A DNA stretch of 64,000 nucleotides. It comes from Mucilaginibacter defluvii (GTDB lineage: Bacteria > Bacteroidota > Bacteroidia > Sphingobacteriales > Sphingobacteriaceae). Positions 42,707 to 50,222 of the stretch are shown here, in pieces (positions within the stretch are counted from its first letter, which is position 1; every line of letters starts with the position of its first letter). The notes under the pieces are model-generated. The model did no database searches and had not been told where the DNA came from. It worked only from the letters and a program-made list of their open reading frames with translations. A program made the position numbers and the translations under genes. The stretch lies in NCBI RefSeq assembly GCF_039543225.1, contig NZ_BAABJI010000002.1:1364001-1428000 (forward strand), read 5' to 3'.

Positions 42707-43728
42707 TTAATATTTAAACACGGCGATCGTGCGATAAAAAGCTTTTACTAACCAATTGTTTTTTTGAGAGGTCCCCCGGCTTAGTTCGTCATCTAAGCCG
42801 CAAAAGCCACCTGCATCAATTGCAAGGTGGCTTTGCCATTGAACTAAAGATCGCTTCGAAAGGTAAGCTGCGATCCTCTTATTCCCGTCAGAGAAAGAAT
42901 AATTTTTGACAACGAAATATAAAAGATTGGCTGCTTTCTCTTCAATGGTGGGGTAAAACTCTGTACCGTCGAATGATTGATAAATTGTACCAATGGATCC
43001 TTTAAAGGAATCATCTTTTTCATTTGCGAACAAACTACTTTCCCCAAAAACGATCTTAAGGTCATCAATAGCTTTAATAGCTTCTTCGTATGTTGCAACA
43101 AATAGCTGGTAGTCTGTCGTTCCATCAAGTGATAATTGTTGGTGATCATATTTATCGAGTACGTCAAGTGCATAACTGTAATCGGTAACCACCTTTAAAA
43201 GACCGACAGCTTCTTCACTGGAAAGTTCTTTGTTCTTTATAACATTCCCTAAGAGATTTACGGCTTGTTTAAGAGAATCAAATTGAGCCGACTGATCCTT
43301 CAATTTCCGTTCGTTAATCGTATAACCCTGAATCAGATGATCTTTTAAGGTTTGATTAGCCCAAATGCGGAATTGTGTTCCCCGTTTTGAATTTACCCGG
43401 TATCCTAATGATATGATTGCGTCTAAATTGTAATACTCCACATCCCGAACTACGTTTCGGTTTCCCTCGCTTGAACTGTTGCATTTTTTGCAACAATTGC
43501 GTTCCGGTCAAGTTCACCCTCCAAAAATATATTTCGAAGGTGTCGGGATATGACTGATTTGTCACGTTCAAAAAGTTCTGCTAACTGGTTAAGGGTTAAC
43601 CATAGGGTATCATCCCTCAATTTAACTTCAACTGTGGCGCCGCCGCCGGCGTCCTGATATATAATGATCTGATCGTTGTGCATAATTTCGTTATTGAGTA
43701 ATTGGACTGGAAATTCGATTGTCTCCAT
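42707..43728 (-). pseudogene. RhuM-Fic family protein, broken
   Basis: The N-terminal RhuM part (DDTLWLTLNQLAELFERDKSVISRHLRNIF) is open from 43728 to 43450, and the middle and Fic part (EYYNLDAIISLGYRVNSKRGTQFRIWA onward) from 43441 in a shifted frame; one base seems missing near 43460. The Fic motif reads YSFSDGNKR, with Tyr in place of the catalytic His, and the C-terminus after RIAA is replaced by unrelated sequence. Such proteins AMPylate targets and often accompany mobile elements or toxin systems. This copy is dead. Confidence 0.8.
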
Positions 43729-43786: not shown

Positions 43787-45020
43787 TCAATCATGATCTG
43801 TGCTGCCCTGATTGTTCTCAATGATCTTTTTAAGTTGTCCCATATCATCACTGATCTTCTTCAGCAGTACTCTGGCATAGATCTGGGTGGTGGCGATCTT
43901 GGTATGGCCCATCATTTTGCTAACCGTCTCGATCGGAACATTATTAGAAAGGGTTATCGTAGTGGACACCGAATGTGAGTACCTTTTTGATCCCGTTCAT
44001 AAAGCCGATCTCTTTCAGGTAACTGTTAACCTTTTGATTAGACAGATTGGGGAAAAGCGTACCTGTGATCTCCGCGCGGTCACCGTGACGGTAACGCTCC
44101 AAAATTTGCTGGGCGACGGGAAGGATAGGGATATTGGTCGGTTCGTCGCTTTTTTGGCGGAATAACTTGATCCACTGCGCACCATCTTCACCCGTAGTAA
44201 TATTGTTCTCCTTCAGGTTCATCAGGTCCACATAAAATAGCCCGGTGTAGCAACTGAAAACGAATAGATCACGAACGATGTTCAGCCGGTCGACAGCAAA
44301 ATCTTTTACCTTGATGGAATCAAGTTCTTTTTGATTGAGGAGGGCGGTCTCAACTTTTTTATACCTGAACTTATAATTCTTGAAAGGATCACGGGATATC
44401 CAGGTCAATTTTAACGCGAGCGTCGTCATTTTACGCAGGCGGATCAGGTGTTTCATTACGCCGTTGTTGTTCATCGGCCGTTGATGATCTTTGGGCTTAT
44501 GGTTCCGGAGATAGGTCTCAAAGTCAATAATGAACTTGTAGTCGACATCATTGATCCTGATGTCGGTCGTATTGCGCTTTTCTTTCAGGAACTTCTCCAG
44601 GTACCGGCGGGTTACAGCATAATGCTTGAGTGTGCTCCACGTGAGGGCGGCAGAGGCGGTCTCGTAGTGGTAGTCCATCAATTTGCTGAGCGAATAGGTT
44701 TGCTCAGTATCTTCGCCCAGGAACATAGCCTTAAGTAGTTGTGGCGTAACTTCCTTGCCAGCGATCTGTAATTGCTGGTAATAGGTTGTGATCGTGAATT
44801 TGACCTGTTCAAGGTAAGCGTTGGTCTCTTTGGCTTCGGGGACCTTTATCCTTAGACCGCCACGACCCGAGTCCCAATTGTCGACCTTCACTTGATGTTT
44901 TAATGCGAATCGAACACGTTCTTTGTTGACGGTAACGGCTGCATAAACGTTCGTTACGCCGTCCTTCGCCTTTTCTTTTTTGATGGTGAAATGCACACCA
45001 AACAACTGTGATGTCTTCAT
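43787..45020 (-). pseudogene. Tyrosine recombinase (Bacteroides-type integrase), inactivated
   Basis: The SAM-like core-binding and catalytic domains are open from 45020 to 43944 (SKLMDYHYETASAALTWSTLKHYAVTRRYLEKFL; VFSCYTGLFYVDLMNLKENNI). The frame is then lost at LTFGVHYDNPF, and the rest resumes in another frame at STTITLSNNVPIETVSKMMGHTKIATTQIYARVL, with the nucleophile Tyr. The segment expected between, with H-x-x-R-H-T-F-A, is missing, apparently by a small deletion. The integrase cannot work. Upstream at 45331 is a tRNA-like attachment remnant. Confidence 0.88.
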
Positions 45021-46507: not shown

Positions 46508-46538
46508 AAAAGCACCTGTTACTACAGGTGCTTTTTTT
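46508..46538 (+). terminator. Intrinsic terminator after cold-shock gene
   Basis: AAAAGCACCTGT-TACT-ACAGGTGCTTTT has perfect 12-bp arms and a T-tract, 22 bp after the stop codon. A typical strong factor-independent terminator. Confidence 0.9.
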
Positions 46539-46663: not shown

Positions 46664-47044
46664 ATGGATAACGAGCCGCAGCAAAAAACACTATTGATCA
46701 TTGAAGACGATACAGATATTTTAGACATACTCGAATTGATCTTCCAATTAGAAGGTTATAAGGTTTTCCGTTCTGAAACAGGTGCGGAAATCGAAGATCT
46801 GAAGCTAATGGCGCCGCACCTCATCCTGTTGGATCTTCGTTTAAGCGCGGGTGGCCAGGAAGGTGCAGCGATCTGCCTCCGCTTAAAAGCTCAGGAATCA
46901 ACCCGCCATATTCCCATTGTCCTGCTATCAGCCGAAATGAACATCAGTACAGTGTGTACTGAATGCGGGGCAAATGATTACATTAAAAAGCCATTTGACA
47001 TGGATCACTTGTCTTCCAAAGTGCGGTCACTTGCCCATGCCTGA
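46664..47044 (+). CDS. Single-domain response regulator
   Basis: A 126-residue receiver domain: LLIIEDDTDILDILE acidic pair, phosphoacceptor Asp in LILLDLRLSAGG, Thr/Ser position in VLLSAE and Lys in YIKKPFD. There is no output domain, so it is a CheY-type relay protein. It lies 58 bp before the RsbQ-like hydrolase and PAS kinase genes on the same strand and is probably a phosphate acceptor for that kinase. Confidence 0.93.
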   Translation: MDNEPQQKTLLIIEDDTDILDILELIFQLEGYKVFRSETGAEIEDLKLMAPHLILLDLRLSAGGQEGAAICLRLKAQESTRHIPIVLLSAEMNISTVCTECGANDYIKKPFDMDHLSSKVRSLAHA

Positions 47045-47102: not shown

Positions 47103-47906
47103 GTGAAAGAAAAAGTACTCAAACGTAATAATGTGAATGTTATCGGTGAGAGCGAACAGGTGATATTGTTTGCGCATGGCTTTGGCTGTGATCAGCATGC
47201 CTGGCAGTATGTGGTAGGCTCTTTCACTTCCGATTACAAAGTTGTACTTTTCGATTACACGGGTTCCGGTAAGTCAGATATTAGTCAGTATGATAAAGTC
47301 AAGTACAACAGCCTGGATGGTTATGTGCAGGATCTTTTGGATGTATGTGATGCGCTGGAATTGAGCAAAGTGGTCTTTGTTGGCCATTCTGTCAGCAGCA
47401 TGGTCGGCTTACTTGCCGCCAATAAGCGGCCGGAATTATTTGCTAAACTTATTTTTATCGGTCCCTCGCCAAGATATCTGAACACCGAAGATTATACCGG
47501 CGGTTTCGAAGAAAAAGATTTGGAAGGCTTATTTGAATTCATGGATAGCAATTATCTGGGCTGGTCAGGCGCCATGGCACCTGCGATAATGGGTAATCCT
47601 GACCGTCCTGAACTTGGTGAGTTCCTGACCGGCAGCTTTTGTTCCAACGACCCCGATATTGCGCGCGACTTTGCCCGTGCGACGTTCTTCGCAGATAACC
47701 GCGCCGATCTGTCCAACGCAACGGTGGATAGCCTCACGCTGCAATGTGCGGATGATATCATTGCGCCAACTTCTGTAGGACATTATGTGCAGCAGCATAT
47801 GCCCGGCAACACGCTTGTGCTAATGAATGCTACGGGCCACTGCCCGCATATCAGTGAGCCGGCAGAAACTATTTCGCTTATCAAAAATTATCTTCTATTC
47901 AATTAA
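47103..47906 (+). CDS. RsbQ-like alpha/beta hydrolase
   Basis: A 267-residue alpha/beta hydrolase closely following the RsbQ pattern: KRNNVNVIGE, ILFAHGFGCDQHAWQYV, VLFDYTGSGKSD, nucleophile VGHSVSSMVGLLA, LIFIGPSPRYLN, acid in CADDIIAPTS and His in ATGHCPHISEP. In Bacillus, RsbQ supplies a small molecule to the PAS domain of RsbP in energy stress. It starts at a GTG (47103). The PAS kinase gene starts one base after its stop codon, so the two are coupled. Confidence 0.88.
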   Translation: MKEKVLKRNNVNVIGESEQVILFAHGFGCDQHAWQYVVGSFTSDYKVVLFDYTGSGKSDISQYDKVKYNSLDGYVQDLLDVCDALELSKVVFVGHSVSSMVGLLAANKRPELFAKLIFIGPSPRYLNTEDYTGGFEEKDLEGLFEFMDSNYLGWSGAMAPAIMGNPDRPELGEFLTGSFCSNDPDIARDFARATFFADNRADLSNATVDSLTLQCADDIIAPTSVGHYVQQHMPGNTLVLMNATGHCPHISEPAETISLIKNYLLFN

Positions 47907-47907
47907 T

Positions 47908-49383
47908 ATGGATCGGTCACAAAGTGAGCAACAGGAATTTCTCGCGTCGCTCATCGATGTGGCTGAGCTTTACGATAAAGCGCCCTGCGGGTATTTTTCT
48001 ATTTCACCCACAGGCATCATCATCAAGATCAATCGTACTTTACTTACCTGGCTGGGTTATAATGCAACTGAGCTAATTGGTCAAAAATTCAGCAGACTGC
48101 TGCCCAAAGGTGGCCAGATGCATTTCGAGATGTTCTTTATGCCGCTGGCAGGCGTAGACAAATCCGTTAAAGAATTAAGTTACGAGATCCTCAGAAAAGA
48201 CACCACGGTTATTCCCGTATTGCTAAATGCTTCCGCAGTCCTGGATAATACAGGCAAATTGGCGGCGGTCAACTGCGTACTTAATAGCAATGCTGAACGC
48301 AGGCAATATGAGAAAGATCTGTTGCAGGCGAAACGGATCGCTGAACGTGAAAGGAAGCGACTGGCATTTATGGCCGATCTAATTCCGGAGATCATCTGGA
48401 CGGCCACAGCGAAGGGTACGCTTGATTATGTTAATGCCAGATTTTGCCAATACTTTGACTGCGACGGTAAGGAAACACGCGCATCCTTCATTCTCTCAAA
48501 AATGCATCCGGAAGACCGCCGGAACTTTTTAAATAGCTGGCGCGCCAGTTTGGCCACCGGCAGTGACTTGGAAGCGAAAGTAAGAGTGGTCAATACAAAA
48601 GGCGCTTACGAATGGCATCTGTTGAGAGGTGCAAAGTTTTTAGACGAACAGGGCAATCTGACGAACTGGTTCGGCTCTTGCGCAAATATAGATGGCCATA
48701 TTAACGCAATGAAGAAGAAGGATGACTTCATCAACATCGCCAGTCATGAATTGAAAACACCGATCACCAGCTTAAAAGCGATCCTGCAGTTAATGGACCG
48801 GCTAAAAGCTGATCCGGCTAATAAAATGCTGCCTGGCTTAATTGAGAAAGCAAACCGGAATGTCGGCAAGGTCAATACCCTCGTTGAAGAATTGCTGAAT
48901 GTCAGTCAGCTCAACGATGGCCAGCTGCATTTGAATAAGACGCTTGTTGATCTGGATGAATTAATTGGTGATTGTGTGCATCACATACGTATTGATCAGC
49001 AATATGAAATTTTAACAGTTGGTGACAAAGGCGTTACCATATTTGCCGATGCTGGACGGATCGAGCAGGTGATCAATAACTTTATCAGCAACGCGATCAA
49101 ATATGCGCCAGACAGCAAACAGGTATTGGTAAATATTACAGGAAAGCCAAACGAGATATTTGTAGAGGTGACCGACCAAGGGCCAGGCGTTGAAACCGAT
49201 AAGATACCTTATTTATTTGACCGCTATTACCAAATCGAAAATAAGGGCAGTAAGTATTCAGGCTTAGGATTGGGGCTATACATTTGTGCGGAGATCATCA
49301 AAAGACATGGGGGCAAGATCGGCGTCAACAGCAAGCTGGGAAAAGGCAGTACTTTTTATTTCAGTTTGCCCCGCCAGGGATAA
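47908..49383 (+). CDS. Soluble PAS-PAS hybrid-free sensor histidine kinase
   Basis: A 491-residue cytosolic kinase. PAS 1 covers residues about 20-130 (APCGYFSISPTGIIIKINRTLLTWLGYN), PAS/PAC 2 about 155-265 (DLIPEIIWTATAKGTLDYVNARFCQYFD). The HisKA H-box is FINIASHELKTPITSLKA near residue 275; ATPase boxes are INNFISNAIKYAP (N), VTDQGPGVETDKIPYLFDRYYQ (G1/F) and GLGLGLYICAEIIKRHGG (G2). There is no membrane segment. It directly follows the RsbQ-like gene, so a small product of that hydrolase may be sensed by PAS 1. Confidence 0.92.
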   Translation: MDRSQSEQQEFLASLIDVAELYDKAPCGYFSISPTGIIIKINRTLLTWLGYNATELIGQKFSRLLPKGGQMHFEMFFMPLAGVDKSVKELSYEILRKDTTVIPVLLNASAVLDNTGKLAAVNCVLNSNAERRQYEKDLLQAKRIAERERKRLAFMADLIPEIIWTATAKGTLDYVNARFCQYFDCDGKETRASFILSKMHPEDRRNFLNSWRASLATGSDLEAKVRVVNTKGAYEWHLLRGAKFLDEQGNLTNWFGSCANIDGHINAMKKKDDFINIASHELKTPITSLKAILQLMDRLKADPANKMLPGLIEKANRNVGKVNTLVEELLNVSQLNDGQLHLNKTLVDLDELIGDCVHHIRIDQQYEILTVGDKGVTIFADAGRIEQVINNFISNAIKYAPDSKQVLVNITGKPNEIFVEVTDQGPGVETDKIPYLFDRYYQIENKGSKYSGLGLGLYICAEIIKRHGGKIGVNSKLGKGSTFYFSLPRQG

Positions 49384-49745: not shown

Positions 49746-50222
49746 TCAGTTGTTCGCTTTAACGATTTGCTGTTCAATTTCTCTTAGCGCAGTCTGAATG
49801 CCGTCCCGTTGTTCGGTAAGCAACTTTAAGTGATCCGCGTGATCGGCATAGTCAGCGATACACATATCATATTTGTCAATAGCGGCACGTTCGCCGGTGG
49901 TTATCGCAGTCAATATTGCGTAGTCTTCTCTACTGCTGAATGCCTGCTTGACATTTAACCAGGCACGATGTAAACCACCTAATATGCCTCCATTTTCATT
50001 ATCGGCATCTTCACCGTGCAGTGCGATGTGTTCTTTCAGTTCAGCAGCATAGACAATGCGTTCTCCGGAGATCCTGGAAAACAGTGCTTGTAATTCAGGG
50101 TTTTCTGTGGCTTCTGCCGCGGATTGATATCCTTCCTTTCCGTCGTTGACCAACTCGAGTATTTCTTTTAGATCATTAGTGACCTGTTGCTTGCTTTTTA
50201 ATGATGATGATTTGATTTCCAT
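49746..50222 (-). CDS. DUF2383/PA2169-type four-helix-bundle protein
   Basis: A 158-residue all-helical protein: LKEILELVNDGKEGYQSAAEATENPELQALFSRISGERIVYAAELKEHIALHG, then LTAITTGERAAIDKYDMCIADY. This fits PA2169 family (DUF2383), ferritin-like four-helix bundles with E and H residues that could bind metal. Frequent among stress-induced genes in Bacteroidota. Monocistronic. Confidence 0.88.
   Translation of the reverse strand: MEIKSSSLKSKQQVTNDLKEILELVNDGKEGYQSAAEATENPELQALFSRISGERIVYAAELKEHIALHGEDADNENGGILGGLHRAWLNVKQAFSSREDYAILTAITTGERAAIDKYDMCIADYADHADHLKLLTEQRDGIQTALREIEQQIVKANN

Follow-up and report, generated by a model that had tools for sequence, protein, structure and literature searches.

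A probable RsbQ-PAS sensing module with a histidine-kinase output in Mucilaginibacter defluvii

We analyzed a stretch of 64,000 nucleotides from Mucilaginibacter defluvii (contig NZ_BAABJI010000002.1, positions 1,364,001 to 1,428,000; hereafter the window), in which the gene of an RsbQ-class hydrolase is directly followed by the gene of a PAS histidine kinase. A single-domain receiver gene precedes both, as an earlier reading made from the letters alone (the sequence-only reading) had described. The features of the locus are as follows.

46508..46535, + strand: terminator-like hairpin, a 12-pair stem and then a T tail
46664..47044, + strand: CheY-like single-domain receiver of 126 aa (PF00072, E 3e-17; EDD, LLDLRL, LLSAE, and KKPF motifs)
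47103..47906, + strand: RsbQ-class alpha/beta hydrolase of 267 aa, GTG start, TAA stop at 47904-47906
47908..49383, + strand: soluble PAS-PAS-HisKA-HATPase histidine kinase of 491 aa, assigned by Pfam and motifs, ATG at 47908, stop ending at 49383
47959..48279, + strand: PAS1 of the kinase, of the RsbP-PAS type by its residues at RsbP-equivalent positions, the predicted RsbQ-docking domain
48355..48681, + strand: PAS2 of the kinase, of the PAS_3/PAS_4 type (PF08447/PF08448), a putative coupling domain or second input
48709..49380, + strand: kinase core, DHp with the phospho-acceptor His280 and HATPase_c (PF00512, PF02518; SHELKTP)

Since the hydrolase gene stops at 47906 (TAA) and the kinase gene starts at 47908 (ATG), the two genes are separated by a single base, in agreement with the sequence-only reading. 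The kinase open reading frame as listed (518 aa) starts at an in-frame ATG within the hydrolase gene. This stretch of 518 codons is the longest open one in the region, compared with at most 197 codons in 200 shuffles, and together with the recurrence of the pair in other genera and phyla it rules out that the frames and their adjacency arose by chance. The receiver gene lies 58 bases upstream of the hydrolase gene, outside the pair itself (47103-49383), and the hairpin sets the receiver-hydrolase-kinase stretch apart from the preceding small gene. The motifs listed for the receiver are presumably its receiver signatures.

Comparison with solved structures revealed that the closest relative of the hydrolase is Bacillus subtilis RsbQ (1wom, E 1.3e-99, 336 bits; the next match has 240 bits), followed by an Oleispira homologue, an alpha/beta-hydrolase entry, and the plant proteins D14 and KAI2, so that its close resemblance to RsbQ, proposed earlier, is borne out. 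The catalytic triad is intact (Ser96/Asp218/His246), and among the hydrolases paired with a PAS protein Ser is present in 76 of 77, and Asp and His in all 77. In the hydrolase tree, a quick tree with SH-aLRT support only, the protein falls in the clade that holds B. subtilis RsbQ. D14 and KAI2 belong to the same hydrolase family (E 5e-62 to 7e-49), and RsbQ is the bacterial counterpart of such plant receptors for karrikins and strigolactones. In these plant receptors the hydrolase serves as the receptor and F-box proteins are its partners, whereas the neighbor in the window is a PAS kinase. Pfam assigned PAS_9 (residues 26-123), PAS_3 (174-256), HisKA (271-338), and HATPase_c (381-490) to the kinase, whose H-box is the canonical SHELKTP. 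Since no 19-residue stretch of the hydrolase, the kinase, or the receiver exceeds a Kyte-Doolittle value of 1.46, the three proteins appear to be soluble, and the description of the kinase as a soluble PAS-PAS protein stands.

Coupling of an RsbQ-class hydrolase to a PAS histidine kinase, the central proposal of the sequence-only reading, is supported, yet it was already published in 2011 (Nadezhdin, Brody, and Price; PMC3183031, a source available to us in part). That study described 45 RsbQ homologues encoded directly upstream of proteins in which a PAS domain of the RsbP type is the most N-terminal domain, and defined a bipartite sensing module by nine diagnostic PAS residues (PMC3183031). 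The outputs were PPM phosphatases in Gram-positives, histidine kinases in Gram-negatives, and diguanylate cyclases in both; thus, the idea of an RsbQ acting on a kinase in place of RsbP has been in print since 2011 (PMC3183031). Extra PAS domains occurred in five of the 45 proteins, and a DIT motif at the PAS end was reported to be absent from the set (PMC3183031). The F55A substitution in B. subtilis RsbP disrupted both RsbQ binding and signaling (PMC3183031).

To place the window kinase, PAS1 was aligned with RsbP, which gave a gap-free alignment with a constant offset of 17 residues. At RsbP C10, L13, L48, Q53, F55, C56, Y59, P62, E72, and P86, PAS1 reads C, F, L, Q, H, F, F, P, E, and P. 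It is identical at C10, L48, Q53, P62 (a further conserved PAS residue named in the 2011 paper, PMC3183031), E72, and P86; similar residues stand at L13 (F), C56 (F), and F55 (His72, which belongs to the aromatic class of the paper), and Y59 corresponds to Phe76. For all these positions, the assignment of the published consensus classes to individual PAS residues is one that we infer. The position of F55 is aromatic (H, Y, or F) in all 26 relatives with a PAS-PAS-histidine kinase (PAS-PAS-HK), all 19 labeled PAS-noHATP, and all 25 with a single-PAS kinase (PAS-HK). Further elements of the 2011 definition, in the part of the paper available to us, are present as well: the RsbQ homologue stands immediately upstream on the same strand, one base apart, with its Ser-Asp-His triad intact; the nine RsbP-PAS residues lie in the most N-terminal PAS; PAS1 ends in NSNAERR and lacks the DIT motif; PAS2 stands between PAS1 and HisKA in Pfam, where the definition asks for a coiled coil of at least 21 residues or a further PAS; and HisKA with HATPase_c is one of the accepted outputs (PPM, histidine kinase, or GGDEF). 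The PAS residues thus place the window pair within the published module, one substitution (at the Y59 position) being particular to its lineage.

The window module is thus like the published Gram-negative kinase modules, as far as the available text describes them, in its upstream RsbQ homologue, its RsbP-type first PAS, and its histidine-kinase output, but differs from them in having F rather than H or Y at the Y59 position. In contrast to the 2011 set, some of its relatives carry a DIT-like end after PAS1 (13 of 26 PAS-PAS-HK and six of 25 PAS-HK relatives, by a crude pattern). It also comes from a genus of Bacteroidota, a phylum not named in the 2011 main text by the terms searched, a check that covers the text and not the species figure (PMC3183031). 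The B. subtilis RsbQ-RsbP pair shares with it the hydrolase (1wom) and the first PAS domain, whereas the output in the window is a kinase and not a PPM phosphatase, and a second PAS is placed between PAS1 and the output. A Pfam scan found no PPM phosphatase domain in the window kinase, which therefore does not belong to the RsbP phosphatases. No solved relative of PAS1 was found at E 1e-3. The pair of the window is a new lineage of a coupling already published, is ordinary in concept, and is useful as such a lineage.

The distribution of the hydrolase is patchy: at E ≤ 1e-40 the genus had it in 31 of 149 genomes, the family in 61 of 251, and the phylum in 22 of 395. Within the genus there were 41 matches, made up of 22 full-length proteins of at least 54% identity, two fragments, and 17 proteins of 38-45% identity that belong to another clade. 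With a profile of the RsbP-type PAS1 (profile A2; 31 rows, 14 from this genus), 20 of the 149 genomes gave matches at E ≤ 1e-20, 22 in all. According to the coordinates, all 22 lie directly beside the 22 full-length RsbQs, and none was found in the other 129 genomes; since these loci supplied 14 of the 31 rows of the profile, the hits are partly due to construction, but the absences are not. The two genomes with RsbQ fragments (G052 and G025) had no PAS1 match. Locus L037, from a named Mucilaginibacter genome, and locus L009, from a genome assigned to the genus of the window, share the same hydrolase, which agrees with the placement of the host in Mucilaginibacter. The pair is therefore conserved in the genus (22/22), which removes the doubt on this point that the sequence-only reading had raised against itself.

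A wider survey covered 132 distinct hydrolase loci (nine duplicates removed; five of the 132 partial). A PAS1-type protein adjoins the hydrolase in 70, another kinase adjoins it in 15, and no PAS1 lies downstream in 42. Two script labels were corrected: L049, labeled PAS-HK, is PAS-PAS-HK according to its 494 residues and its alignment, and L014, labeled PAS-noHATP because the locus ended, is on reading a complete multi-PAS kinase of 957 residues. The H-box pattern is itself limited and missed 14 of the 51 full kinases. Outside the phylum, Bradyrhizobium has the order receiver-hydrolase-PAS kinase, Phaeobacter a corresponding arrangement, Rhizobium one with a product annotated as a response regulator, and Streptomyces a hydrolase with a SpoIIE phosphatase. 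Chance adjacency of hydrolase and kinase is ruled out by the locus survey, the tree, and the adjacency within the genus.

When the distance matrices of the hydrolase and of the kinase segments were compared by the mirror-tree method (24 PAS-PAS-HK loci with the kinases aligned whole; L038, L041, and L129 were left out and L049 was added), the hydrolase and PAS1 were correlated with r 0.77. The corresponding values were 0.70 for one half of the hydrolase against the other, 0.35 between PAS1 and the kinase core, and 0.43 between the hydrolase and the core. The excess of hydrolase-PAS1 over PAS1-core was 0.33 (bootstrap 0.08 to 0.53; none of 200 at or below zero). All these values include shared ancestry, and the claim rests on the contrast between correlations within a gene and across the gene boundary. 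This co-variation across the boundary provides independent sequence support for the direct-contact model derived from B. subtilis genetics.

Taken together, the window pair appears to be an RsbQ-PAS bipartite sensing module from Bacteroidota whose output is a histidine kinase, an explanation to which we assign a probability of roughly 0.85, and the hydrolase-like sensor very probably controls the neighboring kinase. The order of the genes, the intact triad, the type of the PAS domain, the strict co-occurrence of the partners, and the co-variation of hydrolase and PAS1 are directly supported. As to docking, direction of regulation, ligand, and phosphotransfer partner, we infer the following. 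A small cytoplasmic molecule would be bound, and probably turned over, in the Ser-Asp-His pocket of the hydrolase. In a ligand-dependent state the hydrolase would dock on PAS1 of the kinase dimer, around the F-alpha helix, and the change may travel via PAS2 and the linkers to the DHp and ATPase core, thereby setting the autophosphorylation of His280. The phosphoryl group would then pass to a receiver, plausibly the product of the upstream gene (46664-47044) here and one encoded elsewhere in the genome for most relatives.

Several observations weigh against this interpretation. The Y59 position is F in 24 of 26 members of the PAS-PAS-HK group of the window, compared with H in 21 of 25 single-PAS kinases. 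A fused hydrolase-PAS1 chain predicted by AlphaFold (pLDDT 94.8, pTM 0.76) showed no confident docking. A clade of 23 RsbQs has no PAS partner, which indicates that the hydrolase is able to have a life of its own. PAS1 and PAS2 are themselves correlated with r 0.61; the hydrolase-PAS1 value exceeds this by 0.14, an excess that is not robust, since it fell to zero or below in 26 of 200 bootstraps. A first mirror-tree over 23 loci, in which the segments were excised at motifs and then aligned, gave 0.21 for PAS1-PAS2 and was withdrawn; since this value rose from 0.21 to 0.61 with whole-kinase alignment, we limit our claim to the contrast with the core. A same-strand receiver within 400 bp upstream was found in just five of 29 comparable Bacteroidota loci. 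A conserved receiver-hydrolase-kinase operon as a general rule is thereby ruled out, although Bradyrhizobium nonetheless has the same order, and of the phosphorelay wiring proposed earlier the coupling to a kinase is supported, and the local receiver as a fixed partner is weakly supported at best. Finally, the support for the coupling obtained here is drawn from sequences.

Three other explanations have to be set against the sensing module. The kinase could act mainly as a phosphatase or a phosphotransfer station, so that the module removes or relays the phosphate of the receiver. Canonical HisKA kinases are often bifunctional, and nine of the 22 modules of the genus lack an ATPase domain, which implies that removing phosphate or passing it on can itself serve as an output; the window kinase, however, has a full HATPase_c and the canonical SHELKTP, and we regard this explanation as unlikely for the window. 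Even less probable is that the hydrolase is a metabolic esterase that shares an operon by chance with a kinase sensing something else. In its favor are the intact triad, the RsbQs without a PAS partner, and a more distant RsbQ-like clade whose members occur alone or beside kinases without an RsbP-type PAS. Such an enzyme is hard to reconcile with the adjacency in 22 of 22 genus loci and the lack of RsbP-PAS elsewhere, the retained PAS-type residues, the co-variation across the genes that contrasts with the core, and the RsbQP genetics of B. subtilis in the 2011 study (PMC3183031, in the part available). The third explanation, that the module reports energy stress as is said of RsbQP in B. subtilis, was also offered by the sequence-only reading. 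Homology to RsbQ is what favors it, whereas both SpoIIE-type phosphatases of this genome are located elsewhere and nothing found in the neighborhood points to energy; the proposal is thus unsupported here and improbable. In the available text, the 2011 authors themselves describe energy-status sensing as lacking experimental support and leave the RsbQ ligand and the sensed cue open (PMC3183031).

The new material lies in the relatives and not in the window, namely in DHp-only proteins, the PAS-less clade, and loci with BLUF genes. In 16 complete loci (L019-L026, L059, L063-L065, L067, L097, L106, L121), RsbQ is followed by a DHp-only protein, either PAS-DHp (204-228 residues, 11 loci) or PAS-PAS-DHp (339-356 residues, five loci), and the HATPase model had no match in any of the 16. 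L046, which ends with its contig, and L068, which contains unread bases, were not counted. In the genus, DHp-only proteins account for nine of the 22 modules (six PAS-DHp and three PAS-PAS-DHp), the remaining 13 being full kinases. The aligned ends are invariant in all 16 at Q26, H28, R31, P33, A35, S64, L68, and D69. The His is followed directly by L, M, or V, and four residues beyond it stands A, R, or K; the window kinase has E and T at these places. In DHp domains, the residues after and four on from the phospho-acceptor His bear on self-phosphorylation; the lack of E and T thus argues against self-phosphorylation and for phosphotransfer. Of five representatives scanned with the Pfam HisKA model, two matched weakly (L023, 5e-5; L067, 5e-4) and three (L019, L025, L065) did not. 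The predicted structure of L023 (pLDDT 91.9, pTM 0.67) consists of a PAS followed by helices at 116-170 and 177-206, and its top Foldseek matches were LOV-histidine kinases over the whole length, with an rmsd near 10 Å. The hydrolases of the DHp-only loci form two groups in the tree, one of 10 rows (support 100) and one of seven rows including the gapped L068 (support 90).

We tentatively propose that in the Sphingobacteriaceae the RsbQ-PAS receptor may have been rewired, from kinases like that of the window, to a fourth output, namely a PAS-DHp protein that lacks the ATPase domain and has an invariant phospho-acceptor His. Through this protein a small molecule bound by the hydrolase would gate phosphotransfer along a relay in which other kinases also take part, instead of making phosphoryl groups. 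A DHp-only output is not among the three outputs named in the available text of the 2011 paper (PMC3183031), and our literature searches found no such output of RsbQ-PAS modules. The genome of the window encodes five other proteins (L157, L158, L160, L161, L167) in which a similar phospho-acceptor His is followed by just 53-67 residues, leaving no room for an ATPase domain. This suggests that these bacteria use such endings more widely. Mucilaginibacter and its family include close relatives whose modules end in full kinases or a bare DHp or lack a PAS partner altogether, which makes them an unusual resource for determining the ligand and the cue of RsbQ.

The 23 RsbQs without a PAS partner downstream (L066, L069-L073, L107-L116, L118, L119, L122, L125, L128, L130, L131) form a clade with support 100 and a long stem of 0.53, nested among the hydrolases of the PAS-PAS-HK loci. 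Five of 103 conserved columns are changed in it, including that of C247, which directly follows the catalytic His and is replaced by F or Y. The distant RsbQ-like clade is found beside kinases in L028, L029, L031, L035, L098, L100, L101, L133-L135, L139, and L142-L145; L139, the sole locus of this clade scanned whole, encodes a hybrid of HisKA, HATPase_c, and a receiver. A BLUF blue-light sensor gene lies 7-8 bp before RsbQ and a PAS-PAS kinase in two loci (E 1e-27 and 9e-29), at 4591-4983 in L048, which is from the same genome as the duplicate L054, and at 2303-2695 in L056. In the literature collection searched, no paper covers BLUF together with RsbQ. A possible BLUF remnant is located at 4712-4978 in L049, with no Pfam match.

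Elsewhere in the window, a DUF2383 protein is encoded directly downstream of the kinase on the other strand (49746-50222, - strand). At 42707-43728 (- strand), two adjoining frames resemble, by eye, one gene of the RhuM/Fic type split in two, and an integrase-like frame lies beside them at 43944-45020 (- strand).
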